Source of the DNA: Streptomyces chrestomyceticus JCM 4735
GTDB taxonomy: Bacteria; Actinomycetota; Actinomycetes; Streptomycetales; Streptomycetaceae
Length of the DNA stretch: 64,000 nucleotides
Reading direction: 5' to 3'
Assembly (NCBI RefSeq): GCF_003865135.1
Contig: NZ_BHZC01000001.1
Location: 310,001-374,000, forward strand
Part shown: positions 14,084-64,000 of the stretch, piece by piece
Position numbering within the stretch: position 1 is the first letter of the stretch
How the letters are laid out: each line of letters begins with the position of its first letter
Position numbers and translations under genes: made by a program
Notes under the pieces: model-generated
The model's input: only the letters and a program-made list of their open reading frames with translations
What the model was told of the DNA's origin: nothing
Databases searched by the model: none

Positions 14084-15651
14084 GCGACACAGCAAGCCGT
14101 ACGGACGAGAGCGCCGGGCCGCGGCACACCGGCGACAGCACGGTGGTCAAGCCGGGCGACCCCCGGTACGTGGACCTGATCTCCGGCACCAACCAGCGGT
14201 TCATCGGCAGCCCGGAACGCATCAGGCTGATCACCTCCACGGCCGACGCGGTGCACGCCGTCCAGGAGGCCGTGCGCGAGGGCAAGCGCATCGCGGTGCG
14301 CAGCGGAGGGCACTGCGTCGAGGACTTCGTGTGCAACCCGGACGTGGAAGTCGTGCTCGACATGACGCGGATGTCGCGCATCGAGTTCGACCACGCGCGT
14401 CAGGCATTCGCCGTGGAGAGCGGCGCGCTGCTGTTCAACGTCTACGAGCAGCTCTACCGGCGCTGGGGCGTCGTCATTCCGGGCGGCATCTGCTATTCGG
14501 TCGCCGTCGGCGGGCATGTCTGCGGTGGTGGGTACGGCATGCTGTCGCGCACCCTCGGGCTGACGGTGGACCACCTGGAGGCCGTCGAGGTGGTGTGCGT
14601 CGACGCCCAAGGCAAGGCGTACAGCGTGGTGGCGAGCCGGGACCCGGACGATCCGAACCATGATCTGTGGTGGGCCCACACCGGTGGTGGGGGCGGCAAC
14701 TTCGGGCTGGTGACGCGTTACTGGTTCCGTACGCCCGGCCGTACCGGTACCGACCCGTCGCAACTGCTGGTCGCCCCGCCCGCCAAGGTCCTGTTCGGCC
14801 AGACGGCCGTCCCCTGGGACCGGCTGCCGGAGGCGGACTTCCGCCGGCTGCTCCTGAACTACGGTGCCTGGAGCGAGCAGAACAGCGCGCCGGGCTCGCC
14901 GGGCGCGGAAGTCTCCAGTGTCCTGGTGCTCAACCACCGCGCCGGCGGCCCGGTGGCACTGGTCAGCCAGATCGACGCGGAGCGGCCCGGTGCGCGGGAC
15001 CGGCTGCGCGGCTTCCTCACCGCACTGGTCGAGGGCACTTCCGTCCAAGGCGATCCCACCGTCACCGAAGCCGTCCAGGAACTGACCTGGCTGCAGGCCA
15101 ACCGGCACCTGGTCACCATCATCGGCAACCAGCCGATCCCCTCGGTCCGCGGCGCCACCAAGTCCGCGTACCTGCGCACCAACTACTCCACCGACCAGGC
15201 CGCCACGATGTACCGGCATCTGAACCGTCCCGACGTGCACAGCCCCGGCGCGATCGTGATGCTGATGCCCTTCGGCGGGCAGATCAACGCGGTGGCCCCG
15301 GACGCCACCGCCTCCGCGCAGCGCGACTCGGTCATCAAGATGCGGATCGAGAACTGGTGGGTGAACCCGGCGGACGACGCGTCGAACATCGGCTGGACGC
15401 GGGAGATCTTCCAGGACCTGTTCGCGGAGACCGGCGGCGTGCCCGTACCGGACTCCGCCACCGACGGCTGCTACATCAACTACGCGGACGCCGACATGAC
15501 CGACCCGGAGTTCAACCGGTCCGGCATCCCCTGGCCGGCTCTCTACTACAAGGACAACTATCCGCGTCTGCGCAGGGTGAAGGGACGCTGGGACCCGCGC
15601 AACGTGTTCCGGCACCGGATGAGCGTCGAACCGCCGGCCGCGGAGAGCTGA
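14080..15651 (+). CDS. FAD-linked oxidoreductase, berberine bridge enzyme-like
   Basis: About 523 residues if translation begins at the TTG at 14080, which overlaps the P450 stop (TTGA) and has GGAG 8 nt upstream; a longer frame would start inside the P450 gene. It has the PCMH-type FAD domain, with His78 in RSGGHC and Cys138 in GGICYSVAVGGH. These are the two positions used for bicovalent 8-alpha-histidyl, 6-S-cysteinyl flavin attachment in this family. The C-terminal BBE domain ends with YINYAD and a YYKDNYPRLRRVKGRWDP segment. Members perform two-electron oxidations such as alcohol or sugar oxidation and oxidative cyclisation. Coupling to PKS and P450 suggests a late oxidation of the polyketide. 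Confidence 0.92.
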   Translation: MSDTASRTDESAGPRHTGDSTVVKPGDPRYVDLISGTNQRFIGSPERIRLITSTADAVHAVQEAVREGKRIAVRSGGHCVEDFVCNPDVEVVLDMTRMSRIEFDHARQAFAVESGALLFNVYEQLYRRWGVVIPGGICYSVAVGGHVCGGGYGMLSRTLGLTVDHLEAVEVVCVDAQGKAYSVVASRDPDDPNHDLWWAHTGGGGGNFGLVTRYWFRTPGRTGTDPSQLLVAPPAKVLFGQTAVPWDRLPEADFRRLLLNYGAWSEQNSAPGSPGAEVSSVLVLNHRAGGPVALVSQIDAERPGARDRLRGFLTALVEGTSVQGDPTVTEAVQELTWLQANRHLVTIIGNQPIPSVRGATKSAYLRTNYSTDQAATMYRHLNRPDVHSPGAIVMLMPFGGQINAVAPDATASAQRDSVIKMRIENWWVNPADDASNIGWTREIFQDLFAETGGVPVPDSATDGCYINYADADMTDPEFNRSGIPWPALYYKDNYPRLRRVKGRWDPRNVFRHRMSVEPPAAES

Positions 15652-49154: not shown

Positions 49155-49814
49155 TCACCCCCTCCGTGCGCGCGAGGGCGGCCCCGGAGACGCGTGGCGG
49201 CGGAGTACGGCGTGCCGCGCCTGCCAGGTGGCCGAGCGGCTGCCGAACGGGGCGTAGTCGATCTCCAGGACGGTGAAATGGGGTGCGACCAGGGCGAGAA
49301 ACGTCGGCTCGGCCATCCGGGAGGGGCCTCGCACCTGAGAGAGTTCCGTCTTCACGGTGGGGGCGCTCGCGCCTACGTGGATCCAGAGGCCACCCGGCAG
49401 GCAGACCCGCGCCATCGCCGCGACGAAGTGCCGTCGGTCCGTCATCTGCGGTAGGGCGTGCAGCACGCCCCGTTCCAGTGCCACCGGAAACGGGCCGAGC
49501 CGCGGTGGTAGGTGCGTGACGTCGGCCGTCGTGAACCGGACGGTCAGCGCCGCGGGCGTACGGGCGCGTGCCAGGGCGATCGCCCGTGGCGAGAAATCGC
49601 AGCCGGTGACCCGGTAGCCGTGCTCGGCGAGCCAGCGTGCGGTGGAGCCCAGCCCGCAGCCGACATCGATCACGTCCTCGGGTGGCGGCGCGTGCCGGGT
49701 GAGCAGGCGGGCCAGGGGCGCGGTGGGCGGCTCGTCCCAGACCGGGTCGCCGCATCGATAGGTCAGGTCCCATTCCTGTGCCGTCATGGGCTTCGGGTCC
49801 CGTGACTTTTCCAT
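49155..49814 (-). CDS. Class I SAM-dependent methyltransferase
   Basis: 219 residues. Motif I is VIDVGCGLGSTARWLA (about 49-64), followed by GCDFSPRAIALA (motif II acidic residue region) and ALERGVLHALPQ. It resembles thiopurine/tellurite-type and small-molecule methyltransferases. It is divergent from the RiPP operon, sharing a 342-nt upstream region, and convergent with dnaE with 39 nt between them. If it belongs to the RiPP pathway it could methylate the modified C-terminus or a hydroxyl; this is inferred from position only. Confidence 0.88.
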   Translation of the reverse strand: MEKSRDPKPMTAQEWDLTYRCGDPVWDEPPTAPLARLLTRHAPPPEDVIDVGCGLGSTARWLAEHGYRVTGCDFSPRAIALARARTPAALTVRFTTADVTHLPPRLGPFPVALERGVLHALPQMTDRRHFVAAMARVCLPGGLWIHVGASAPTVKTELSQVRGPSRMAEPTFLALVAPHFTVLEIDYAPFGSRSATWQARHAVLRRHASPGPPSRARRG

Positions 49815-50156: not shown

Positions 50157-50309
50157 ATGACCGCTCTGCAGCCCGAAGTGACCGTCGAGGACGAATTCTC
50201 GGAACTCGACGAACTGGAAGTGATTGACGCCAAGGAGCTGAAGCTCGGCGGCTCCTACCACGCTTATGTCTATATCGCCGCGGAGGACATTTACGGGACC
50301 GCTGACTGA
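50157..50309 (+). CDS. RiPP precursor peptide, Tyr-rich core with C-terminal Asp
   Basis: 50 residues with an unusually strong ribosome site (AAGGAGGG, 2 nt before the ATG). The leader is acidic (VEDEFSELDELEVIDAKELK), then L-GG, then the putative core SYHAYVYIAAEDIYGTAD. There is no Cys, and four Tyr lie in the last 18 residues. The gene is 13 nt upstream of a radical SAM gene and first in a tightly packed modification operon, the standard place for a precursor. The Gly-Gly is a possible cleavage site, but no peptidase gene is adjacent. I do not recognise the family. Confidence 0.85.
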   Translation: MTALQPEVTVEDEFSELDELEVIDAKELKLGGSYHAYVYIAAEDIYGTAD

Positions 50310-50322
50310 GGTCCGGTGAGCC

Positions 50323-52416
50323 GTGCCGCGCGTACCGGCGGTGGACGCCGAGCCCGTCGACGTACTCCTCCTCTTTCCGCCGCAGACCGAGGCCAGGTTC
50401 TTTCCGTATCTGAGCCTGCCCTGTCTCACCGGTCATCTGCGGCGCCGGGGCCGGCGCGTCCACCAGGCCGACCTCAACATCGCCCTGCTCCACGAACTGC
50501 TGCGCAGGCCGCACCTGTTGGACGCCGCGGCGCGTGCCCAGGGCGGCGACGGTATGCGCGACTGGTACCGCAGGGAAATGGCCAAGGTCGTCGACAGCTA
50601 TCTCACCGAAATCCGCGCGCATGTCATGCGGAAAGCGTCACCGGGTGATCTCGGTGCCGCCCGCTCGGTACGGCTCGCCCGGCAGGCACTCGAACTGTTC
50701 GTGCGGGACACCTTCCTGACATCGGTCTGGCGTGACCTCGACGCACTCGACCGCGCGGCACGGCGGGCGGCGGACCGGCCTCCCGCCGCCTCCGGAGCCG
50801 CGGTGGAGGTGCTCCACCGGCTGGTGACGGACCTGCTGGCCCGGCATCCGCCGCGGGTGGCCGGGCTGTCGGTGGCGTTCTTCAGCCAGCTCGGCCCCGC
50901 CCTCCTGATCGCCGCCTGGATCAGGGAGCTCGCCCCACGCGTCAAGATCTGCCTGGGCGGTCAGCAGATCATGCTCCGTGACGCGGACCTCGCGGTCCTG
51001 CCCGGCCTCCGCCGTACCCTCGACGCTCTGTGCTGGACCGCCGGGGAGGAACCACTGGAACGCTGGCTGGACGCCCTCGACGGAACGATTCCCCCGGCCG
51101 CGGTGCCCGGCATGACCTGGTTGCCACGCTCGGGGGCCGTCAGCCGCTCCCGTCAGCCACCGAGCCTGCGCTTCCACGACCTCGGGCCGCCCGACCACAC
51201 CGGCCTGCCGGTCCGCTCGTACCTCAACGAGGGCTTGGAGGTGGCGATCGTCTCCTGCGTCGGCTGCTACTGGGGACGGTGCGCCTTCTGCGCGTACGGC
51301 AACCGGTCGCTGCCGCCCGGCCGGTACCAGCAGGCCACCGTGCGGCAGGTCGCCGACGCGGTCGAGACGGTGGTCCGGGACACCGGGACTCGGTTCGTGG
51401 CGATCGCGGACGAGAACACCAACCTGCGCCTGATCTCCAAGGCGATGCGCGCCGTACGGGAGCGCGGGGTGCGGGTGCGGTTCGGGGTCCGCAGTCGGCT
51501 GGAGCCGGGTCTGGCCGACCCGGCGTTCTGCCGGGCGCTGGCCGAAGTGGGCTGCGCGATGATCGCCGTCGGGTACGAGGGGACCTCGCAACGCCTGCTC
51601 GACCTGATGGACCGGGGCGTGCGCGCGGCCGACTACCAGCGGATCGTGGACACCGTCACCGGGGCGGGCATCACCCTGCGGCTCTCGGTGATGGGCCACG
51701 TCCTGGACGAGCGGCCGGAGGAATTCGAGGAGTCCCTGCGGTTCCTGGCCGTCAACGAGCGGCGCATCGGCATCGACGCGCTCGAACTCATGGTGCCCGA
51801 ACCGGGCAGCAGGCTCGCACAGGCCCCGGAGCGTTTCGGGGTCTCACTGGACACCTCGGGCCCGCTGGCCGGGAACCCCGAACTGAGCTACCTCGCCGGC
51901 CGGGTCGGCTACCCGCTGACGGTCCACGGCGGTCCGACGCGCACCGAAGCCCTCTCCCGGCTGGAGCGGATCTTCCAGGTGGTGCGGCCCGGCCGGGCCA
52001 GCGCCGTCCACCCGCCGTCGCACCGCGCGGCGGCCCGGGGCGACTCCCGTCCGACCGGCCCGTCCGACGCCGCGCGGCCGTATCCGTGGGTACGTACCAT
52101 GCCCGCCCGACTCGACACCGTGCCCGGCCGGACCGTCGTCGCCGACCTGGTGTGGGAGCAGTTCTACGCGCTGCCGCACCGTGACGTCGAACAGCACCCC
52201 GACGGCCTGCTCACGGCCCGCACCGCCCGGGGGCAGCGGCTGCTGGCGCGGCTGGTCGACGTATCGGCCGCCGAGCCGTGTCCGGCAGCGCCACCGAGCA
52301 CGGCAGCGCCCTCAGGCCCAGCCGTGCCCCCGCACCCGGCAGCGCCCTCAGCCCCGGCATCGCCTCCGTACGCGGCAGAGCTCGCAGCCGCCCGGCGCAC
52401 CAGGAGGCCGACGTGA
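50323..52416 (+). CDS. B12-binding-type radical SAM enzyme (RiPP maturation)
   Basis: 697 residues from a GTG. Residues about 10-240 form a cobalamin-binding-like Rossmann domain (DVLLLFPPQTEARFFPYLSL; ICLGGQQIMLRDADL). The radical SAM barrel has its cluster ligands as C315-x4-C320-x2-C323 in GCYWGRCAFCAYG, a longer first spacer than the canonical CxxxCxxC. C312 is an extra nearby Cys. The C-terminus has a low-complexity Pro/Ala/Ser tail of about 40 residues. Such enzymes commonly methylate unactivated carbons. Its stop overlaps the MNIO start (GTGA). Confidence 0.88.
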   Translation: MPRVPAVDAEPVDVLLLFPPQTEARFFPYLSLPCLTGHLRRRGRRVHQADLNIALLHELLRRPHLLDAAARAQGGDGMRDWYRREMAKVVDSYLTEIRAHVMRKASPGDLGAARSVRLARQALELFVRDTFLTSVWRDLDALDRAARRAADRPPAASGAAVEVLHRLVTDLLARHPPRVAGLSVAFFSQLGPALLIAAWIRELAPRVKICLGGQQIMLRDADLAVLPGLRRTLDALCWTAGEEPLERWLDALDGTIPPAAVPGMTWLPRSGAVSRSRQPPSLRFHDLGPPDHTGLPVRSYLNEGLEVAIVSCVGCYWGRCAFCAYGNRSLPPGRYQQATVRQVADAVETVVRDTGTRFVAIADENTNLRLISKAMRAVRERGVRVRFGVRSRLEPGLADPAFCRALAEVGCAMIAVGYEGTSQRLLDLMDRGVRAADYQRIVDTVTGAGITLRLSVMGHVLDERPEEFEESLRFLAVNERRIGIDALELMVPEPGSRLAQAPERFGVSLDTSGPLAGNPELSYLAGRVGYPLTVHGGPTRTEALSRLERIFQVVRPGRASAVHPPSHRAAARGDSRPTGPSDAARPYPWVRTMPARLDTVPGRTVVADLVWEQFYALPHRDVEQHPDGLLTARTARGQRLLARLVDVSAAEPCPAAPPSTAAPSGPAVPPHPAAPSAPASPPYAAELAAARRTRRPT

Positions 52417-53420
52417 CCGCCACCTCCCCCACCACCGCACACCCCACCGACAGCGGAGCGACGCACCGGCTGGGTCTCGGCGTCCTCGTGGACATGCCCT
52501 GGTACGGAAAAGGCATCGGCGGGCGGGGCGCCGGGTTCGTGGACACGGACGACGGCGGCGACATCCACCCCCGGCTGAGGGCCTTCTTCCGGCGCCACGG
52601 CGGTGACTTCGCCTACGCGGCCCACTCGTTCCAGCCCCGCTCGCGCGCCCTCCCCCGGCCGGCCGACTACGTACGCGCCTACGACCGCTTCGGCCAGGCA
52701 CTGCCGGCCGGCCTTCCCCGGGCCTTCCACCACACCGAACTCAACATGGGCACGCCCGAACGCTACGACCGCGGGCCGGCCGCCGAGTTCGCCAACCAGC
52801 TCCACGCCCGGTACGGCTTCGCCTGGGTCGTGGAGGACCTGGGGATCTGGAGCCTGCGCGGCTGTCCGCTGCCGTATCCGCTGCCGCCGCCGCTGACCGG
52901 CCCCGGCCTGGAGATCGCCACCCGCAACGCGGCGCAGGCGGCGCGGCTCCTGGTGCCGCCGTTGCATGTCGAGTTCCCCGGTTTCACCGAGGGCGGCTCG
53001 TTCGCGCTGGGCGGCCTCGACGCGTTCGAGTACTTCGCCCGGCTGGCCGACGACGCCGATGTGTGGGTGACGCTCGACGTCGGCCATCTGCTCAGCTACC
53101 AGTGGCTGCGCGGCCGCACCGGCCCGCACATGCTCGACGGGCTGGAGGCACTGCCGCTGCTCCGCTGCCGCGAACTGCACCTGTCGGGCTGCCAGATCGT
53201 CAGCGGAAAGTTCCGCGACCTGCACCACGGTGTGCTCCTGGACGAGCAGCTCGACCTCACCGCCCATCTGCTGCCCCGCTGCCCGCAGCTCCTCGGCGTC
53301 ACGTACGAAGACCCGGTGTTCCGTGAGGACGGACGGCTGGTGGAGAAGTCGCGGCGCAACTACGAACGGCTCAGGGCGCTGGTCGCCGAGTGGCAGGGCC
53401 AGGACCGGGGGCCGTTGTGA
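52413..53420 (+). CDS. MNIO-like (DUF692-type TIM-barrel) multinuclear non-haem iron oxidase
   Basis: 335 residues from a GTG overlapping the previous stop, with AGGAGG 5 nt upstream. The order of candidate metal ligands follows the DUF692 pattern: H107/E109 (FHHTEL), E141 (WVVEDLG), D222 and H225 (LDVGHLL), H256 (ELHLSG), D269 with H271 (DLHHG) and E299 (TYED). The flanking sequences are divergent (no ENP or NN motif), so it is either a distant MNIO or a related xylose-isomerase-like barrel. MNIOs use two or three irons and O2 to rearrange Cys, Asn or Asp residues of RiPP precursors. Confidence 0.72.
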   Translation: MTATSPTTAHPTDSGATHRLGLGVLVDMPWYGKGIGGRGAGFVDTDDGGDIHPRLRAFFRRHGGDFAYAAHSFQPRSRALPRPADYVRAYDRFGQALPAGLPRAFHHTELNMGTPERYDRGPAAEFANQLHARYGFAWVVEDLGIWSLRGCPLPYPLPPPLTGPGLEIATRNAAQAARLLVPPLHVEFPGFTEGGSFALGGLDAFEYFARLADDADVWVTLDVGHLLSYQWLRGRTGPHMLDGLEALPLLRCRELHLSGCQIVSGKFRDLHHGVLLDEQLDLTAHLLPRCPQLLGVTYEDPVFREDGRLVEKSRRNYERLRALVAEWQGQDRGPL

Positions 53421-54214
53421 AAGCGCCTCCCGGCCGGCCGCTGGACGGTCAGCAGCTCGCTGACCTGCTGATGCGGCTGCTGCTGGACGAACGCCCCAGA
53501 CAGCGCCTGGCCGACGAGGGAGCCGCAGCAGTCGCCTCGGGGACTGGTGAGCTGGAGTGTCTGGCAACGGTCGATCTCTGCGAACTCGACAGTGCGGCGC
53601 GCCAGTTCCGCACCACCGTCTGGAAGCAAGGCAGGAACGGCGGCCTCGCCTCCGCGTTTCCACGCAGCCTGCGCCTCCTCGCGTCGGCGGGCGTCCGGGA
53701 CGCGGAACTCCTCACCGGGTTCCTCCGCTCCGAAGAGTTCGGCAGGTTCCGGTTCCTTCCCTACGCCGGGCGCGGCCTGTCCGAGGAGGAGGCGTTCGCC
53801 GCGTACCTGATCGGCTTCGTCGCCGCGCACCCGGACCGGCTCACGGGCGCAGGCGTGGACGCGCCCGTCGTACTGCGCGAAACCGTGACGCACGAATTGA
53901 TGACGGCCCTGTTCACGGCGCTGGTCTGCGAGCAGCCGCTGTCGTTCGACATCGCCGTCGAGGGGATCGTACGGACCGGGCGGGGCCATGCGGCCCTGCG
54001 CCGGTACACGCCCCGGTCCGTCGCCTCCTGGGCGGACCGCCCGGCCGCCGCCCGGCAGGACAGCGGGGAGCCGGTGGCCTACGCGTACTTCGCCACACCC
54101 GCCGGGGTCCGGCGCGGAGCCGTCTCCGCGCAGGTCGCCGCGGCGTTCGAGACCACCCCGTCGGCCGAGGGCGACGCCGCCCGCCGCGCGCTGTCCCGGC
54201 GCGGGCTGTGGTGA
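53417..54214 (+). CDS. Unrecognised protein following the MNIO; candidate partner protein
   Basis: 265 residues from a GTG that overlaps the MNIO stop by 4 bp. I do not recognise a family. The N-terminal part is helical with short acidic/basic repeats (LADLLMRLLLDERPRQRLADEG), followed by TTVWKQGRNGGLASAF and SEEFGRFRFLPYAGRGLSEEEA, and a C-terminal beta-rich region (EPVAYAYFATPAGVRRGAVS). Many MNIOs need a small partner protein, often with a peptide-binding RRE domain, encoded immediately downstream. The position here fits that, but the sequence does not prove it. Confidence 0.6.
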   Translation: MKAPPGRPLDGQQLADLLMRLLLDERPRQRLADEGAAAVASGTGELECLATVDLCELDSAARQFRTTVWKQGRNGGLASAFPRSLRLLASAGVRDAELLTGFLRSEEFGRFRFLPYAGRGLSEEEAFAAYLIGFVAAHPDRLTGAGVDAPVVLRETVTHELMTALFTALVCEQPLSFDIAVEGIVRTGRGHAALRRYTPRSVASWADRPAAARQDSGEPVAYAYFATPAGVRRGAVSAQVAAAFETTPSAEGDAARRALSRRGLW

Positions 54215-54284
54215 GGCCGCCGCCCACGCCGACGGGCCCGCCGGACGGCTCGGCCCGGCTAGGCCAGGAAGGGAACGGGCTGAC

Positions 54285-56198
54285 ATGCACATCGTGTTGG
54301 TGGACATGCCGTGGTCGGCGATCGACGCTCCGTCGCTGGCCCTGGGCATCCTCAAGCGCCGGGTCCACGACGTCTTCCCGGACGTCCGGGTCGACGTCGT
54401 GCACGCCAATCTCGACTACGTGGACTGGCTGACGGCGCGTACCGACTTCACGTTCGAGGAGTACGACTTCTGTGCCGGCTCGTACTTCTCCGGACACAGC
54501 GAGTGGATCTTCGCGGCCGCCCTCAACGAGCTGCCCCGCCGGCACGTCGCGGCGTTCAGCGAGTCCCTGGGCGAACGGGCTCCCGAGCCGCTGCTCGCCA
54601 AGGCGAGGGAACTGCACGAACTCGCACCGCTGTTCGTGCGGGAGACCGCCGCCAGGATCGCCGCCGAAGCGCCCGACGTCGTCGGCTTCACCACGACGTT
54701 CGCGCAGAACGCCGCCGCCCTCGCCACCGCCCGCGCGGTCAAGGCCGGCGCTCCGCACGCGGTGACCGTCTTCGGCGGCGCGAACTGCGACGGGCCGCAG
54801 GGCGCGGCGCTGCACCGGAACTTTCCGTTCGTCGACTTCGTCGTACGGGGTGAGGGCGAGGCGGCGTTCCCCCAACTGCTGGCCGCGCTCGGGGACGGCG
54901 GCGACCTCTCGGGGATCTCCGGCCTGTGCTGGCGGGACACGGAGGGCCGCCCCGTCGCCAACCCGATGGAGGCCAAGGCCCTGCCTCCGGCGGCGCTGGT
55001 CACTCCCGAGTACGGTGACTACTTCGACCGGCACGCACGCTCCACCGCGGGCGGCTGGGTGGAGCCCCGTATCGTCGTGGAGGGCTCGCGCGGGTGCTGG
55101 TGGGGAGCAAAGCACCACTGCACGTTCTGCGGGCTCAACGGATCGTTCATGGAGTTCCGCAGCAAGAACCCGCAGCGGTTCGTCGAGGAGATCCTCGGTC
55201 TGGTCGAGCGGTACCGCATCCTCGACGTGTGGGTCACCGACAACATCCTCGACATGGCCTATCTCGGCTCGATGGCGCCCCGGCTCCAGGAGTCCGGTTA
55301 CGACCTGCGGCTGTGCTACGAGATCAAGTCGAACCTGCGGCGCGAACAGCTCCGCGTCCTCAGCGCGGCGGGCATCGGTTACGTCCAGGCCGGTGTGGAA
55401 AACCTCAGCAGCCGGGTGCTGAAACTCATGGACAAGGGCGTGACCGGCTGCCAGAACGTCCGGCTGCTGCGCGACGCGGAAACCGTCGGCATGAACCTGA
55501 ACTGGAACTACCTCTACGGCTTCCCCGGCGAGGCGGAGGAGGACTACGACGCGATCTGCGACCAGGTGCCCGCCCTGCACCACCTCACCCCGCCCTTCAA
55601 CGCCACCCGCATCAAGGTCGAACGTTTCAGCCCCTACTTCGACCGGCCCGAACTCGGCTTCGACGACCTGCGCCCCGCCGCCCACTACCACCACATCTAC
55701 GACCTGCCCGACTCCGAACTCGCCGACCTGGTCTACCTCTTCGACTCCCCCAAACGCGGCATCTCCCCGGCCTGCCTGGTCCGTCTGCAGCAGGCCGTGA
55801 GCGGCTGGAAGGGCGCTTACGTGGAGTGCCGTCTCACCCACTGCGACCTCGGCGACCACATCGTCCTCGTCGACACCCGTCCCGGATTCGACTGGCACCT
55901 GCTCGACCTGACGGACCCGCTGGAGCTGACCGTCTTCCGCCTCCTCGACATGCCACACTCCCCCGCATCCCTGCTGCACAAGGCCGCGGCCCGCCACGAG
56001 GACGCGACCGGGGACCGGATCGGTGCGCTCCTCACCCGCTGGCGCCGCCTCGGCCTGGTCTTCACCGACGGGGGCCAGTACATCCATGTCGTACCGGCGG
56101 TCGCCAACCAGGACCTGATGCGCCTGGACGGCAGCCGTCTGCACAGCGCCGAGCCCCTGGCCCCGGCCCTCGCCGCCGCCGCCGGAGGTGTCCGATGA
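54285..56198 (+). CDS. RiPP maturation radical SAM C-methyltransferase (B12-dependent)
   Basis: 637 residues from an ATG. The N-terminal half is a B12-binding domain (VTVFGGANCDGPQGAALH; VRGEGEAAFPQLLAAL). The cluster motif is C271-x7-C279-x2-C282 in SRGCWWGAKHHCTFCGLNG, which is the signature of the RiPP maturation radical SAM protein 1 group. The barrel continues through YEIKSNLRREQLRVL and MNLNWNYLYGFPGE. Expected chemistry is C-methylation of core residues with two SAM per turnover. The stop overlaps the next start (ATGA). Confidence 0.92.
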   Translation: MHIVLVDMPWSAIDAPSLALGILKRRVHDVFPDVRVDVVHANLDYVDWLTARTDFTFEEYDFCAGSYFSGHSEWIFAAALNELPRRHVAAFSESLGERAPEPLLAKARELHELAPLFVRETAARIAAEAPDVVGFTTTFAQNAAALATARAVKAGAPHAVTVFGGANCDGPQGAALHRNFPFVDFVVRGEGEAAFPQLLAALGDGGDLSGISGLCWRDTEGRPVANPMEAKALPPAALVTPEYGDYFDRHARSTAGGWVEPRIVVEGSRGCWWGAKHHCTFCGLNGSFMEFRSKNPQRFVEEILGLVERYRILDVWVTDNILDMAYLGSMAPRLQESGYDLRLCYEIKSNLRREQLRVLSAAGIGYVQAGVENLSSRVLKLMDKGVTGCQNVRLLRDAETVGMNLNWNYLYGFPGEAEEDYDAICDQVPALHHLTPPFNATRIKVERFSPYFDRPELGFDDLRPAAHYHHIYDLPDSELADLVYLFDSPKRGISPACLVRLQQAVSGWKGAYVECRLTHCDLGDHIVLVDTRPGFDWHLLDLTDPLELTVFRLLDMPHSPASLLHKAAARHEDATGDRIGALLTRWRRLGLVFTDGGQYIHVVPAVANQDLMRLDGSRLHSAEPLAPALAAAAGGVR

Positions 56199-56893
56199 GC
56201 CCGCTCGCCGCGCCGGTGGCCCTGGCCCTCTGGAGGGAACGCGACCCTGCGGCCAGGGACATCCCGGGGGTGTACGCCGGCACGCTCGACCTGCTCGGCG
56301 ATCAGGTCGAGGGCGCCGTGGCGGACTTCGCCGCCCACCACGTCCAGTGCGCCCGGCTGCCCCGGACCGTCGATCTGACGGACCGGGACGGCGCCGCCGC
56401 GGTGACGGCCCTCGTCGCCGTACGCGAACTCACCGCCTTCGGCATCGCCGTCGAGTGGACGTTACGCCTGCCCGGGGCCGGTGTCGTCGCCGGCATCAGC
56501 ACCGGCGCACCGGCCGACTGGCAGCCACTCAGTCATCTCCACCCGCCCACCACCGTGTTCCGTGGCGACTCCAGCGGCTCCTTCGGCTCCGGCCGCGACA
56601 TCGCCGTCCAGTGGCGCGACTCCTTCCACGCCGCCAAGTGCGGCTTCCGCCGCGGCCCCGGCTTCATCGAAATCCGCGACCGCCGCAGCGGCTCGTTCAA
56701 GCGCCTCGTCATCCGCACACACCAGCACGACCAGCTCATCCAGGCCCTGCTGCGCGGCGTGCCAGGGACCGACGTGCCCTCTTCGGTGGTCGCGAGGTAT
56801 CTGCCATCCGGTCTGATCCACCGGGTGGGACGCTTCCTGTGGTGGACGCCGTACCGGATCCGCCGCTGGCCGCTCAGCACGACCATTCCGTAG
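56195..56893 (+). CDS. DUF5825-like protein, last gene of the RiPP operon
   Basis: 232 residues from an ATG overlapping the radical SAM stop. It resembles the DUF5825 proteins that accompany this type of RiPP radical SAM methyltransferase; the assignment is from memory of context and moderate. Conserved-looking segments are PTTVFRGDSSG, CGFRRGPGFIEIRDRRSG and VVARYLPSGLIHRVG near the C-terminus. It carries a TTA codon (Leu90, nt 56462-56464), so its translation should need the bldA tRNA. Role unknown; possibly precursor binding. Confidence 0.65.
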   Translation: MSPLAAPVALALWRERDPAARDIPGVYAGTLDLLGDQVEGAVADFAAHHVQCARLPRTVDLTDRDGAAAVTALVAVRELTAFGIAVEWTLRLPGAGVVAGISTGAPADWQPLSHLHPPTTVFRGDSSGSFGSGRDIAVQWRDSFHAAKCGFRRGPGFIEIRDRRSGSFKRLVIRTHQHDQLIQALLRGVPGTDVPSSVVARYLPSGLIHRVGRFLWWTPYRIRRWPLSTTIP

Positions 56894-57048: not shown

Positions 57049-57699
57049 TCACAGCAGACCCAGGTCCCGGGCGCGCAGTGCGGCCTGGGTGCGGTCCCGC
57101 AGGGCGAGGCGGCCGAGGATGCGGGAGATGTGGTTCTTCACGGTGCCCTCGCTGAGGTACAACTGCGCGGCGATCTCCCGGTTGGTCCGTCCTTGCGCCA
57201 CCAGGCGCAGGATGTCGATCTCGCGGGGGCTGAGGACGGCGCCCGGCTCCGCTCCGGGGCCCGGGCAGGGCAGGCAGGCGGCGAGGTGGTGGGTCACGGA
57301 GGCGTCGAGCTGGGTGACGCCCGCGTGCGCGAGCCGGACCGCGTGGGCCAGTTCGCCGGCCGGCAGGTCCTTGAGCAGATAGCCACAGGCGCCCGCGCGG
57401 AGCGCCTGGACGACGTACTCCTTGTCGTCGAACGTCGTCAGCATCACCACCCGGCACTCCGGCACCGTGCCACGCAGGACGGCGACCGCCTCGACACCGT
57501 CCATCCCCGGCATCCGGACGTCCATCAGCACGACGTCCGGGCACAGTTCGAGCGCCTTGGCGACGGCTTCGCGGCCGTCCACCGCCGTGCCGACGACCGT
57601 GATGCCCGGCCGGATGGAGAGCAGTGAGGCGATGCCGTCCCGGATGAGCCGCTGGTCGTCCACGACCAGTACGCGTACCGACGCCGCCACCTCGTTCAT
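57049..57699 (-). CDS. NarL/LuxR-family response regulator
   Basis: 216 residues. The receiver domain has acidic pair VVDDQ (14-15), phospho-acceptor Asp60 (VVLMDVRMPGMDG), conserved Thr in MLTTFDD and Lys in YLLKDLP. The C-terminal LuxR helix-turn-helix is LSPREIDILRLVAQGRTNRE followed by IAAQLYLSEGTVKNHIS. The ATG overlaps the kinase stop (ATGA), so it is a cognate pair. Targets unknown; the adjacent RiPP and membrane-protein genes are candidates. Confidence 0.95.
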   Translation of the reverse strand: MNEVAASVRVLVVDDQRLIRDGIASLLSIRPGITVVGTAVDGREAVAKALELCPDVVLMDVRMPGMDGVEAVAVLRGTVPECRVVMLTTFDDKEYVVQALRAGACGYLLKDLPAGELAHAVRLAHAGVTQLDASVTHHLAACLPCPGPGAEPGAVLSPREIDILRLVAQGRTNREIAAQLYLSEGTVKNHISRILGRLALRDRTQAALRARDLGLL

Positions 57700-58859
57700 G
57701 TCACGCCTTCCTCGCGGTGGCCGCGCGGCACCGTCACCGTCAGCCGGGTTCCCCTGCCGGGGCCGCTGTCGATGTGCACGCTTCCGCCCACCAGGTGCAC
57801 CCGTTCGCGCATCCCGACCAGCCCGAACCCGGTGGCGGCCCCGTTCGGGGTGAAGCCGCGGCCGTCGTCGGTCACCACAAGGCGTGCCGCGTCCGCAGCC
57901 AGGACCACCGCCACCGTGACCCGCGACGCCTGCGCGTGGCGGCGCGCGTTGGTCAGGCCCTCCTGTGCGGCCCGGTAGAGCGCGGTCAGCTCCGCCGGAC
58001 CGTAGCCGTCCTCGGTGCCGTCCACCTGCACCGTGACGCGGGGCCGCTCCTCGCCGTCGCGCGCCAGGCCCGCGAGCATCGCCGTCAGCGACCTGTGCGA
58101 CTCCTCGTCCCGCAGGGCCCGTACGGACTGCCGTACGTCGCCCAGCGCGCGCTTCACCGACAGTCGGGCCTCGTCGACCGCGCGCTGGGCCGAGTCGGGC
58201 TGCAGGACCCGGAACTCGGAGGCGATCTGCAACTGTACGGAGACGGCGGTGAGGTGGTGCGCGAGGCTGTCGTGGATGTCCCGCGCGAGGCGGTTGCGCT
58301 CGGCCGCGGCGGACAGTTCGGCGACTTGCGCGGCGTACCGCTCCAAGGCGCGCCGTCCGCGCTGTTCACCGATGGCGACGGCCGCCATGGAAAGCGCGAG
58401 GATGAGGCCGACACAGAGCATCAGCAGGTCGGACACGCGCTCCACCTCGCGGTGCCAGCCGGGCTCGGTCAGCGCGTAGCCGGTGAGGAGCCCGGCCACG
58501 CACAGCGCCGCCAGCGCGAGTGCGACGCCGCGTCCGTAGACGAAGTAGGCGGTGAACGGCAGGAGTACGAAGAGGGCCTGGGCCAGCCCTGACGTGTCGA
58601 GGGCGACCACTCCCGTGATCAGTCCGGTCCGCGCGGCCATCGGCAGGTACGCCCGGACGGGAATTCCGCGCCTGATTCCGCGCCGCTCCACGGTCTCCAG
58701 GGCGACCAGCACCGCGAGCCCCGCGGCGAAACCTGCCGTGCGCCAGAGCGGCGGGGCGGTGCCGGGGGCGAGACCGGCCAGCGTGTAGTAGAGACCGCCG
58801 ACCAGCACCGCGGCGTACAGCAGGGGCGACACCCACGGCACCGGTACGTACGCTGCCAT
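57696..58859 (-). CDS. Sensor histidine kinase, HisKA_3 type
   Basis: 387 residues. The N-terminal 165 residues hold about five or six membrane helices with little extracellular sequence, so it probably senses within or at the membrane. The phospho-acceptor is H196 (ARDIHDSLAHHL), and the HATPase_c part has GLTNARRHAQASRV and VTDDGRGF. It autophosphorylates and passes phosphate to the overlapping response regulator, like the DesK/LiaS group that senses envelope stress. Confidence 0.94.
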   Translation of the reverse strand: MAAYVPVPWVSPLLYAAVLVGGLYYTLAGLAPGTAPPLWRTAGFAAGLAVLVALETVERRGIRRGIPVRAYLPMAARTGLITGVVALDTSGLAQALFVLLPFTAYFVYGRGVALALAALCVAGLLTGYALTEPGWHREVERVSDLLMLCVGLILALSMAAVAIGEQRGRRALERYAAQVAELSAAAERNRLARDIHDSLAHHLTAVSVQLQIASEFRVLQPDSAQRAVDEARLSVKRALGDVRQSVRALRDEESHRSLTAMLAGLARDGEERPRVTVQVDGTEDGYGPAELTALYRAAQEGLTNARRHAQASRVTVAVVLAADAARLVVTDDGRGFTPNGAATGFGLVGMRERVHLVGGSVHIDSGPGRGTRLTVTVPRGHREEGVT

Positions 58860-60025: not shown

Positions 60026-61132
60026 ATGTCGTCTCTGCGGTCGGCGCCACGAATCTCTGCGAGCACGACGTTCGCGGACTATGCGGTCACCACCGCCACA
60101 CGTCTTCTCGGCAGCGCGGGCATGGAGGCCGAACAGGGCACCAGGGCACTACGGAGGATGCTGTCACCGTGGGGCGCGCGGCGGATAGGGACGCGTCCCG
60201 GCTGGCACTCGGACGTCTGCGCCGACGGTTCGCCGATCGAATTCTCCGCGGCCTTCTCGCGGGAGGGCCTGCAGATCCGGGCGCTCGTGGAGGCCTTGCC
60301 CGAACGGTCGGACCCGTCGTCCGCACAGAAAGCGGCGCTTGCTCTCACCCAAGGGCTGACCCGGGATTTCGGGGCCGCCGGTGACCGGCTGGCGGAGGTG
60401 TCGGACCTGTTCCTGCCGGACGAGGACCCCACCGGCTTCGCCATGATGCACGCCGCCGCCCTCGCGCCGACCGGCGACCCCGAGTTCAAGGTCTACCTCA
60501 ATCCGCATGCCAATGCCGGCCTGACCGGCATCGAGCGGACGCGCGCGGCACTGGACCGGCTGGGTTTCACCAAGGCATGGGCGGCGGTCAGGGAATACGC
60601 GGGCCGGGGGTTCGACCTCGACAGAATCGTCTACTTCGGTCTCGACCTGACCGACGGCCCCGAATCCCGCGTCAAGGTGTACTTCCGTCACTACGACGCC
60701 TCTCCGGCGGAACTCGACGCCCGTATGGAGATCTCGCTGCAGCACGAGGCCGGATTCCTGGGGGCCTTCTGCCGTCAACTGACCGGCAGCGACAGTGAGG
60801 TACGTGCGCAGCCGCTGGTCAGCAATCTGACGTTCACGGCTGCCGGCGGAGACCAGCCGGTGTCCGCGACGCTGTACGTACCGTTGTGGCTGCATTCGGC
60901 GAGCGACCGGACCGTTCGCGACCGCGTCAGCGCGGTCATGAGGGAAATGGGTCTTCCCGTCGGCGGCTATCGGACGCTGCTGAACCAGATGGCCCGGCGC
61001 CCGCTCTCGTCCGGCCGTGGCATTCACACGTACGCGTCAGCGCGTGTGCAGCGCGGCCGGTCCCGACTGACCACGTACTGGTCGCCGGAACTCTACGACC
61101 GGTATCCGCCTGCCCGATACCAGCGGGGGTGA
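60026..61132 (+). CDS. DMATS-type aromatic (indole) prenyltransferase
   Basis: 368 residues, the usual length of bacterial dimethylallyltryptophan synthase-type enzymes with the ABBA fold. Family-like segments are TRPGWHSDVCADGSPIEFS near the start, DPEFKVYLNPHANAG in the middle, and SRVKVYFRHYDASP and LTYWSPELYDRYPPARYQ towards the C-terminus. It should transfer a dimethylallyl group from DMAPP to an indole such as tryptophan, without the metal dependence of DDxxD enzymes. It is followed after 5 nt by a PLP enzyme, with which it probably forms a two-gene operon. Confidence 0.88.
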   Translation: MSSLRSAPRISASTTFADYAVTTATRLLGSAGMEAEQGTRALRRMLSPWGARRIGTRPGWHSDVCADGSPIEFSAAFSREGLQIRALVEALPERSDPSSAQKAALALTQGLTRDFGAAGDRLAEVSDLFLPDEDPTGFAMMHAAALAPTGDPEFKVYLNPHANAGLTGIERTRAALDRLGFTKAWAAVREYAGRGFDLDRIVYFGLDLTDGPESRVKVYFRHYDASPAELDARMEISLQHEAGFLGAFCRQLTGSDSEVRAQPLVSNLTFTAAGGDQPVSATLYVPLWLHSASDRTVRDRVSAVMREMGLPVGGYRTLLNQMARRPLSSGRGIHTYASARVQRGRSRLTTYWSPELYDRYPPARYQRG

Positions 61133-61137
61133 AGACC

Positions 61138-62544
61138 ATGGCGCTGCCCGACGCGCCCCGGCCGACGTTCGACGACGCGCAGGTCCGGCCCGGTCTGCTG
61201 CGCCGGCGGTCACCGTTGCGCTGGGGCGCTCATCCGCCCGGAGTCATCCCGCTGACGGCGGCCGAGCCGGACTTTCCCGGCCCCCCGGTGGTCACGGACG
61301 CCATCATTGCGGCGGTCGCCGACGGTTACTTCCCTTACGCGTCGGCCACGGAATGCGGGGAGTTGCAAGAAGCCTTCTCCGACGTGGCCGAGACCCGTTA
61401 TGGAATTGGCAGCCATCCCGACCGTGTGGTGCCGGCCCCGGGCACCGCGGCCGCGCTCTGGGGCGTGGTGCACCTCTTGTGCGGAAAGGGCGACGAGTGC
61501 ATTGTGCTGGACCCGGTAGACCTGTTGTTCGGACAAGCGGTCGATGCCGCGGGGGCCCGGCGGGTCTACTGCCCGATGGACAAGATCACGGGCTCCCTGG
61601 ACCCCGACCGGCTCGCCTCTCTCATCACTCCGCGCACCGCATTGATCTGCCTGTGCAATCCGCACAACCCGCTGGGCACCGTTTTCACCGAATCGACCCT
61701 CCGGGCGGTGGCGGAGACGGCGGGTGCGCATCGCATTCCGATCCTCTGCGACGAGGTGTGGAGCGAGATCGTGTATCCGCCCGGAAAGCACATCAGCCTG
61801 GCGAGCCTGGACACGGCGAACAGCCGACGCGTCTACACGGTGACCGGCCTGTCCAAGACCTTCGCGTTACCGGGGCTCCGGGCGGGATTCGTGATCGCCC
61901 CGACCCGGCGGGCGGCGGACGCGCTGCGGCGCACGTTCCAGCGTCTCGGCGCCACGTACAGCATGACCCCGCTCGCCCAGGCCGGCGCCCTGGCCGCCCT
62001 GCGTCACGGCTGGCCCTGGAGAGACGCCTTCCTGGAACACCTGCACCAGATACGGGACTACAGCGTGGACCGGTTGAACGCCGTCCCGGGAATTTCGTGC
62101 GGCCGCCCGGAGGGCACGTACGTCCTGTTCCCCGACGTGTCCGCCACCGGAATGACCAGCCGGGCGATGGGCGAATTCCTCCTGGCCCGAGCCCGGGTGG
62201 CGGTGGTGCCCGGCACACCGGAGTGGTTCGGCCCGGCCGCCGAAGGCAATGTCCGTATCAGCTACGCCACGTCCCGGGCGGTCATGGAAGAGGCGTTGCA
62301 GCGCATCGCGAGAGCCGTCGAAGAACACGTCACCGGTGGCCCGGTCCCGCTCCAGGCCACCGGAACGCAGCGGAAGAGCGCCCCTCCCCTACCCCGGGGA
62401 AGTCAGCCCCGCAGCCATGCCTTCAAGGAGTTCCACCACCCCGTACGCCTCCTTCGGGCGGGAACCGGCAAGGGCACCACCGACGACAGCGGCACAGCGG
62501 GCTCGGCCGCGGGCGCTGCGCCACCGTCCGGCCGGCTCCCCTGA
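61138..62544 (+). CDS. PLP-dependent aminotransferase/C-S lyase (class I/II, MalY/PatB-like)
   Basis: 468 residues from ATG 61138; a GTG at 61129 overlapping the previous stop is an alternative. Fold type I motifs: LCNPHNPLGTVF, ILCDEVWSEIVY and PLP Lys240 in GLSKTFALPG. It resembles MalY/PatB cystathionine beta-lyases and aromatic aminotransferases, so it could transaminate or cleave the prenylated tryptophan. Leu244 is a TTA codon (nt 61867-61869), implying bldA control. The last 70 or so residues extend past the usual end of the family and lie antisense to the P450 C-terminus. Confidence 0.85.
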   Translation: MALPDAPRPTFDDAQVRPGLLRRRSPLRWGAHPPGVIPLTAAEPDFPGPPVVTDAIIAAVADGYFPYASATECGELQEAFSDVAETRYGIGSHPDRVVPAPGTAAALWGVVHLLCGKGDECIVLDPVDLLFGQAVDAAGARRVYCPMDKITGSLDPDRLASLITPRTALICLCNPHNPLGTVFTESTLRAVAETAGAHRIPILCDEVWSEIVYPPGKHISLASLDTANSRRVYTVTGLSKTFALPGLRAGFVIAPTRRAADALRRTFQRLGATYSMTPLAQAGALAALRHGWPWRDAFLEHLHQIRDYSVDRLNAVPGISCGRPEGTYVLFPDVSATGMTSRAMGEFLLARARVAVVPGTPEWFGPAAEGNVRISYATSRAVMEEALQRIARAVEEHVTGGPVPLQATGTQRKSAPPLPRGSQPRSHAFKEFHHPVRLLRAGTGKGTTDDSGTAGSAAGAAPPSGRLP

Positions 62545-63887
62545 TGCCGCTCCTCGGTCTCCGCGAGGGCAGGGGCCGGACCGGCGGGCGCGGCGGACCC
62601 CGCCGACCGGGGCGCGGTGAACGCCACCGGAAGGCTGGTCAGGTGCCGTGTCATCCAGCCCGACTTCCAGCGCAGTTGCTCCTCGGGGATGCTCAGCCGT
62701 ACGTCGGGGAGCCTCGCCAGCAGCGTGTCGATGCCGGTGTCGGCGATGGCGCGGCCGATGTTCTGGCCGGGGCACTCCTGAGGGCCGCTGCTGAAGGCGA
62801 GGTGCGAGCGGTTCCCGAGCAGCGGGACCGAGGGGTCCGGCCGGACGGCCGGGTCGTGGTTCCCGGCGGCCAGCGCGAGCAGCAGCATGTCCCCCGCCTC
62901 GATCTTCTGACCGCCGACCTCCGTGGCCACGGCGGCCCAGCGGCCGGGGATGGTCATCAGCGGCGGTTCGCTCCACAGCACCTGCTCCACCACGTCGGGC
63001 AAGGTCATCTGCCCGCCGGCCAGCGACGCGTGGCACCGGGGGTCGGTCAGCACCATCCGCAGGGTGCTCTTGAGGAGGTTGACCGTGGTCTCGTTGGCGG
63101 CGATGAGGATGACCCGCAGGTGGTTCCACACCTCCTCGTCGGTCAGCCCCGAGGAGTGCTCGATCAGCCAGGACGTGACGTCGTGGCCATGGCTGCCGCG
63201 CTTGCGCCGCACGAGTTCGGTGAGGGTCTCCACGATGAACGCGTTGCTGGCCACCGAGGTCTCGGTGCCCGCCACCATGTCCCTGCTGGCCGCGACCAGC
63301 CGCGGCCCGTACTCGTCGGGCATGCCCAGCAACTGCGTCAGGACGAGCATCGGCAGGTGTTCGCAGAACTCCTCGGCCAGGTCCGCCTCGCCCCGCTCGG
63401 CGAAGCCGTCGATCAACTGGTGCGTGAAGCGGGTGATGTGCCGCCGGATGCCGCGGCGGTTGAAGCGCTCCAGGCTGTCGGTGACCGCCAGGCGCAGCCG
63501 GTTGCGCTCCTCGCCGTCCAGGAACAGGCAGACCGGCTGCCAGGCGATCATCGGGAGCAGCGGGGAGTCCGGCGGGACCCGCCCTTCCCTGAACCAGCGC
63601 CAGTTGCGGGAGTCCCGGCTGAACCGGGCGGGGGTACCGGCGACCTCCAGGATCTCGCGGTACCCGAGGACGAGCCAGGCCGGGAGGTCGCCGTCGAGCA
63701 GGACGGGCGCGACGGATCCGTGCCGGGCGCGCAGCCGCTCGTACAGGCCCATGGGGTCCTCGGCCGCCTCGGGGCCGAAGAGCCGCGCCAGCCCGTCCGT
63801 GGCGCCGGGCCGGGCGTGGGCCGGGCACTGCGGCGGCGGGGCGGGGGCCCACGCGGTGCGGGACTGTTCGGGGAAGGAGGAAGTCAC
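62403..63887 (-). CDS. cvnE: Conservon-associated cytochrome P450 (CYP157-like, ExxR replaced)
   Basis: 494 residues from a GTG overlapping the preceding GTPase stop (GTGA). I-helix AANETT (263-268) and haem Cys372 (FSSGPQECPGQNIG) are normal. Where ExxR should be, the sequence is EQVLW (301-305), so the universal Arg is missing. The same change (EQxLW) is known for Streptomyces CYP157 enzymes, which are encoded in conservons. A Pro/Ala-rich, basic 70-residue tail ending NSLKAWLRG is longer than in typical P450s and overlaps the convergent PLP-enzyme gene by 142 bp. Confidence 0.9.
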   Translation of the reverse strand: MTSSFPEQSRTAWAPAPPPQCPAHARPGATDGLARLFGPEAAEDPMGLYERLRARHGSVAPVLLDGDLPAWLVLGYREILEVAGTPARFSRDSRNWRWFREGRVPPDSPLLPMIAWQPVCLFLDGEERNRLRLAVTDSLERFNRRGIRRHITRFTHQLIDGFAERGEADLAEEFCEHLPMLVLTQLLGMPDEYGPRLVAASRDMVAGTETSVASNAFIVETLTELVRRKRGSHGHDVTSWLIEHSSGLTDEEVWNHLRVILIAANETTVNLLKSTLRMVLTDPRCHASLAGGQMTLPDVVEQVLWSEPPLMTIPGRWAAVATEVGGQKIEAGDMLLLALAAGNHDPAVRPDPSVPLLGNRSHLAFSSGPQECPGQNIGRAIADTGIDTLLARLPDVRLSIPEEQLRWKSGWMTRHLTSLPVAFTAPRSAGSAAPAGPAPALAETEERHQGSRPDGGAAPAAEPAVPLSSVVPLPVPARRRRTGWWNSLKAWLRG

Positions 63888-64000
63888 CGTCGCTCCGGGT
63901 TCGTCGTGGTGAGGGCGTGCAGATAGCGCATGAGGGTCAGCAGGCCGTCGCGGCTGGAGAGGCGTTCGCGGGCGTCGCAATCGATCACCGGCACCCCGTC
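63884..64000 (-). CDS. cvnD: Conservon small GTPase, C-terminal 38 residues (gene continues beyond window)
   Basis: Only the end is present: VPVIDCDARERLSSRDGLL then TLMRYLHALTTTNPERR. The VIDCDAR block followed by a helix matches the C-terminus of the GTP/ATP-binding proteins of Streptomyces conservons (kinase-roadblock-DUF742-GTPase sets). The 4-bp overlap with the P450 gene supports the conservon assignment. The rest of the set should lie just beyond 64000. Confidence 0.75.
   Translation of the reverse strand, partial: DGVPVIDCDARERLSSRDGLLTLMRYLHALTTTNPERR

Follow-up and report, generated by a model that had tools for sequence, protein, structure and literature searches.

The biphenomycins, antibiotics with potent activity on Gram-positive bacteria (PMC12707348), have an unknown mode of action (PMC12257519). 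The bip and pbs clusters that encode them combine a multinuclear non-haem iron-dependent oxidative enzyme (MNIO) and its partner protein with a B12-type radical S-adenosylmethionine enzyme (rSAM) as cross-linker, a three-residue aromatic-X-aromatic target and a short acidic leader (PMC12707348, PMC12257519). A search with the motif FHAFRF by Padhi et al. 2025 returned 99 hits, including precursors of the form YHx1Yx2Y (x1 = S, T or A; x2 = T, V or A), all associated with one MNIO group, which is that of the biphenomycin-like pbs cluster (PMC12257519). In these YHxYxY clusters, of which the biphenomycin-like stg cluster is one, the core genes are accompanied by another B12-rSAM and by a DUF5825 protein (PMC12257519). 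Here we describe a six-gene operon of this subgroup at 50157-56893 of a 64,000-nucleotide stretch of Streptomyces chrestomyceticus JCM 4735 (hereafter the window; 310-374 kb of the single-contig 9.38-Mb genome, with all coordinates based on the window). We consider it probable that the operon specifies a biphenomycin-like ribosomally synthesized and post-translationally modified peptide (RiPP) in which tyrosine hydroxylation and ring joining are combined with a predicted C-methylation.

Results

Membership of the YHxYxY subgroup

The precursor contains the motif Y34-H35-A36-Y37-V38-Y39, which conforms to the published YHx1Yx2Y form with Ala at x1 and Val at x2, and not to the FHAFRF motif of the biphenomycins proper. 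Its leader contains EFSELDELEVIDAKELK, it lacks Cys and its last residue is Asp. An earlier note on this DNA, made from the letters alone, had proposed a RiPP operon with a precursor, an MNIO, two B12-type rSAM enzymes (here rSAM1 and rSAM2) and a DUF5825 protein. The six open reading frames (ORFs) are all present where that note placed them, and four of the five junctions are indeed 4-bp overlaps or a 13-nt spacer (in gene order a 13-nt spacer, two 4-bp overlaps, a 70-nt spacer and a 4-bp overlap). Family scans with Pfam and TIGR03975 name four of the six proteins, leaving the precursor and the 265-aa protein without a match. The same six genes recur, each set with a conserved upstream precursor, in 14 further genomes of Streptomyces, Nonomuraea and Embleya, and thus the gene set is not a chance assembly; L013, in which several genes have broken frames, was scored as present from its pieces. 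Only one PbsC-like MNIO and one YHxYxY precursor occur in the whole genome.

The operon was thus correctly recognized, but it is not the new RiPP class or subclass that the note thought plausible, nor does the combination match nothing described. The motif, MNIO, partner, second B12-rSAM and DUF5825 protein are shared with the YHx1Yx2Y clusters already reported, as putatively is the first B12-rSAM (PMC12257519). Because the published precursor motif and gene set match, and because the 265-aa protein has the predicted fold of an MNIO partner, the operon truly belongs to a subgroup already reported, though chemically uncharacterised. Of the two findings that the note would have taken as a refutation, absence of a conserved precursor is contradicted, and prior characterization as a known pathway holds only in half. 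The pathway has been known as a gene-cluster type since 2025; its product is another matter, as no title or abstract in the literature searched describes what a YHxYxY cluster natively makes (most subscription journals lay outside its coverage), nor does the accessible text of PMC12257519. With the bip and pbs clusters the operon shares an MNIO with its partner, a three-residue aromatic-X-aromatic target, a short acidic leader and, putatively, the B12-rSAM cross-linker. Compared with them, it has Tyr for Phe and adds rSAM2 and DUF5825, and the arginase, hydroxylase, MFS and TldD genes of those clusters are not found in its operon (PMC12707348, PMC12257519).

Relatives and phylogeny

Searching the GTDB species genomes with an alignment of MNIOs yielded 27 relatives, and further genomes supplied two more loci of the YHxYxY type (Y-type). 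The loci with an identified precursor, including the window, number 28, of which 15 are Y-type and 13 FHAFRF-type (F-type). Genes for rSAM2 and DUF5825 adjoin the MNIO in 15/15 Y-type loci and 0/13 F-type loci, within the flanks examined (in fetched loci these span ~8 kb upstream and ~6 kb downstream of the operon). One F-type locus, L032 of S. griseorubiginosus DSM 40469, encodes a 41-aa precursor ending in FRFRS that agrees with published BipA (PMC12707348). In an MNIO tree of 30 rows the Y-type enzymes form one clade (support 100/100). Its neighbouring branches are the FHAFRF loci L021 (94/90) and L020, the latter placed at a modest 84/53. This placement, next to a single Y-type clade, indicates that the rSAM2/DUF5825 pair was most simply gained once. 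The cluster is rare: an MNIO of the family at E 1e-40 or better was found in 10/392 genomes of the genus, five of the ten being confirmed as Y-type, and in three of 394 genomes sampled from the class. Two Nonomuraea loci, L033 and L034, have the MNIO and partner without rSAM1 or a recognisable precursor and may do something else; they were left out of the 28 loci and included in the tree and in the count of iron ligands below.

The genomes G153, G222, G355, G654 and G900, which contain MNIO relatives, were left out of the precursor comparison, and L054 and L057, which duplicate L016 and L009, respectively, were each counted once. Alignment A1 has six rows and A2 has 19 (L013, L017, L025, L028-L032 and L035 being omitted); A3 comprises 16 precursors, A4 eight of the 15 Y-type precursors, and A5 34 sequences, namely that of the window and 33 of 105 hits.

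A precursor profile returned 48 hits, 46 with the Y-type motif and two with FHAFRF; the 46 are clusters overlapping the 15 Y-type loci, so the two sets are not independent. Tyr34, Tyr37 and Tyr39 are invariant in all 46, x1 is S in 37, T in six and A in three, and x2 is T in 25, Y in ten, I in six, V in three, A in one and E in one. The window precursor is 84% identical to that of L009, likewise a YHAYVY locus. Among the hits, P0121 carries YHTYTY in a peptide that otherwise resembles the window precursor, and P0129 reads YHAYAY. As a separate observation, x2 is Y, I or E in 17/46 precursors (P0124, P0126, P0136, P0142-P0152 and P0157), outside the published T/V/A set; the ten with Y read YHSYYY, several with another Tyr after the motif.

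The maturation enzymes

The MNIO matches PF05114 (MbnB_TglH_ChrH) at 37.9 bits (cut-off 25). The nine iron ligands predicted for PbsC are found in it at a constant offset of 9 and are kept in 30/30 MNIO relatives. The 265-aa protein, which the earlier note could not recognize, is not an unknown enzyme. It lies directly after the MNIO in the position of PbsD/BipF, and its AlphaFold2 model (pLDDT 89.0), with TglI and NGO1945 as best structural matches, gives it the predicted fold of the MNIO partner TglI with an RRE-like domain. In L011 the MNIO and this partner are one fused protein. rSAM1 has a Radical_SAM Pfam match and is homologous to the rSAM genes of FHAFRF loci; its CYWGRCAFC motif form is kept in 27/28 loci and its place in the gene order is that of pbs and bip. 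The assignment of rSAM2 to the RiPP C-methyltransferase type, already made in the note, is borne out by 587.6 bits to TIGR03975 (cut-off 281.85) and by Radical_SAM and B12-binding Pfam domains, and the DUF5825 protein matches PF19142 at 185.5 bits. A second, partial DUF5825 match lies at C1:896551-896739 (64.5 bits, profile 53-116), ~0.5 Mb from the operon.

An MNIO, a B12-rSAM and a Tyr-containing peptide ending in Asp are also common to the aminopyruvatide (apy) cluster, in which ApyHI acts on the C-terminal Asp (PMC10635010), and it could be argued that the MNIO of the window does likewise rather than acting on Tyr rings. We regard this as very improbable. The apy cluster has a P450 cross-linker, a methyltransferase and a Cys that is essential for ApyHI (PMC10635010), whereas there is no P450 among the six genes and no Cys in the precursor. 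The ApyH model, moreover, scores the window MNIO at 28.6 bits against a cut-off of 400, Y-type precursors differ in their last residue (D, E, G, A, V and others), and on the tree the MNIO falls together with its counterparts from FHAFRF clusters.

A predicted route to a methylated biaryl peptide

Action on the tyrosine rings is what the pbs enzymes provide: Tyr within a YTY core receives a hydroxyl group at C-delta1 from PbsCD, and PbsB links two Tyr at C-epsilon2 (PMC12257519). By comparison, the MNIO and its partner would likely hydroxylate Tyr37 and Tyr39, the RRE-like domain presumably binding the leader, and rSAM1 would likely join the two rings to give a three-residue Y37-V38-Y39 biaryl ring. 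rSAM2 and the DUF5825 protein are predicted to C-methylate the peptide, most likely on V38 and with lower probability on a Tyr beta-carbon or in the tail. An enzyme encoded elsewhere in the genome would cut off the leader. By analogy to PbsP/BipI, TldD/TldE-type genes at C1:7308445-7310153, the only candidates looked for, may fill this role; a scan of the six genes and of ten flanking ORFs detected neither a TldD-type protease nor an arginase. For the GluC fragment LKLGGSYHAYVYIAAE the computed monoisotopic mass is 1753.904, rising to 1785.894 with two O, becoming 1783.878 when the ring is also closed and 1797.894 with one further CH2.

Several points weigh against this proposal. No product was observed, and the operon, unlike pbs and bip, contains no protease or exporter. 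The Pfam scan gives no B12-binding match for rSAM1, and a structural search with the DUF5825 protein returned no confident match. From a YTY core PbsBCD made the doubly hydroxylated, cross-linked peptide only as a minor product, and with a YRY core hydroxylation took place but PbsB formed no cross-link (PMC12257519). Finally, x2 is not beta-branched in 12/46 Y-type precursors, where it is Tyr, Ala or Glu.

The site of methylation

In the clavusporins of Zhang et al. 2025, a B12-rSAM of the TIGR03975 type reportedly stands beside DUF5825. The window likewise has a B12-rSAM adjoining DUF5825, a family that is matched in 33/121 genomes of the genus. Among 20 fetched DUF5825 loci without an MNIO (MNIO match in 0/20), an rSAM2 adjoins DUF5825 in 20/20, and 17 have a recognisable upstream precursor with a leader of the form [MV]xK..I.NDP and a core rich in Val, Ile and Thr (GITVTV and GVVVYL, for example); the window precursor fits neither this leader nor this core. 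We infer that these loci are clavusporin clusters. A B12-rSAM/DUF5825 pair C-methylates clavusporins, as cited in PMC12257519. The cores of these loci, the x2 counts, and the Arg found at x2 in 13/13 F-type loci, which have no rSAM2, together favour V38 as the methyl site. The matter is not settled because 12 of the 46 precursors lack a beta-branched x2, which speaks against x2 as the general site of methylation.

The main rival on this point is that rSAM2 methylates the beta-carbon of a motif Tyr, the remainder of the pathway being unchanged, in the manner of ApyD, a B12-rSAM that yields beta-methyltyrosine in aminopyruvatide (PMC10635010). In its favour, the three tyrosines are constant in all 46 precursors whereas x2 varies and in 12 of them is not beta-branched. 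It should be emphasized, however, that rSAM2 reaches only 80.9 bits with the ApyD model (cut-off 750), far below its score with TIGR03975, and is 49-57% identical to the rSAMs of the 17 Val/Ile/Thr-rich-core precursors, most of whose cores have no Tyr. We judge methylation of tyrosine to be rather unlikely.

Sulfotransferase and dehydratase genes in sister clusters

An Stf0 sulfotransferase gene adjoins 13/13 YH[ST]YTY loci (L010-L019, L023, L053 and L055) and a LanB dehydratase gene 11/13, within the flanks (two examples of each were checked with Pfam and the remaining loci were called by tblastn); for the two loci that lack a nearby LanB, L011 and L015, LanB genes occur at other sites in the genome. 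Neither gene is present in the flanks of the two YHAYVY loci, those of the window and L009. PF09037 (Stf0) has no match in the whole genome of either and is present in 3/3 YHTYTY genomes searched; at E 1e-20 nothing related to the sister LanB was detected in the L009 genome, and the window genome has one distant relative. As the F-type loci, in which x1 is Ala, also gave no Stf0 or LanB match in their flanks by tblastn with Y-type queries, Stf0 tracks x1, occurring exactly where that residue is Ser or Thr in 28/28 loci. Within the Y-type clade, however, this reflects a single change on the tree, and the two YHAYVY loci thus count as one event in which x1, x2 and lineage are inseparable. The Ser/Thr of the motif may be the substrate of both enzymes.

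The operon could also be read as a reduced or silent remnant of YH[ST]YTY clusters, one deprived of sulfotransferase, dehydratase, protease and exporter that would yield no finished product, since the genome lacks Stf0, no sister-type LanB stands beside the operon and no protease or transporter lies within it. We consider this improbable. All six frames are intact, and Streptomyces sp. CB02923 retains the whole set, its proteins 75-90% identical, together with flanking methyltransferase and two-component genes; the other Y-type operons likewise share no flanking protease or export family.

The operon and its nearest relative, which have the smallest gene sets of the 15 YHxYxY loci compared and no adjoining sulfotransferase or dehydratase, offer a simple case for testing hydroxylation, ring closure and C-methylation on one peptide: a clean test of whether, and in what order, one peptide takes three chemistries. 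The match between sulfotransferase presence and motif Ser/Thr in the sister loci is a second testable point. Tentatively, and with more doubt than conviction, we suggest that YHxYxY is a chassis on which MNIO hydroxylation, rSAM biaryl formation and B12-dependent C-methylation are joined in sister clusters by sulfation and dehydration, the window being a stripped-down form with Ala and Val in which the ring valine would become tert-leucine. If true, the sister products would be the first sulfated and dehydrated biphenomycin relatives, an rSAM would turn a ring valine into tert-leucine, and the chassis would stack chemistries not found combined in any described peptide in the literature search. 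That search returned no paper combining two of sulfotransferase, lanthipeptide dehydratase and MNIO; in the accessible text of PMC12257519, sulfotransferase and lanthipeptide are not mentioned and "dehydratase" occurs in a reference only.

Genomic neighbours

Table 1. Genes of the operon and of its immediate surroundings.
Feature	Position	Strand	Remarks
Precursor peptide	50157..50309	+	50 aa; AAGGAGGGACC ahead of ATG; no Pfam match
rSAM1, PbsB/BipD-like	50323..52416	+	GTG start; Radical_SAM; predicted biaryl cross-linker
MNIO, PbsC/BipE-like	52413..53420	+	PF05114; predicted Tyr ring hydroxylase
MNIO partner, PbsD/BipF-like	53417..54214	+	265 aa; RRE-like C-terminal domain in predicted model
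rSAM2, B12 radical SAM RiPP C-methyltransferase	54285..56198	+	TIGR03975; B12-binding
DUF5825 protein	56195..56893	+	PF19142; predicted rSAM2 partner
Class I methyltransferase, divergent	49155..49814	-	Methyltransf_25; 82% identical neighbour in L009
LuxR-type response regulator and histidine kinase	57049..58859	-	89% and 82% identical neighbours in L009

The window and L009 alone share the upstream methyltransferase and, downstream, the regulator, the kinase and an ORF without a Pfam match, at 77-89% identity (Table 1), and genes beyond this block have no match in L009. The methyltransferase has no counterpart in the 28 other loci searched, and the regulator and kinase have only distant matches, in L024 and L053. 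It is possible that the methyltransferase is an accessory gene, and the regulator and kinase are regulators, of the YHAYVY lineage only; the shared block may have extended the cluster in this lineage, for tailoring and control, or reflect ordinary synteny. Further downstream (60026-63980) lie three adjacent genes, for a prenyltransferase of the tryptophan dimethylallyltransferase type, a class I/II aminotransferase and a P450-like protein, which look like a separate indole-prenylation cluster. At 15367-15460 ARAGORN reports a tRNA-like gene with a four-base anticodon (ccgc) and no identity call, which may be spurious.
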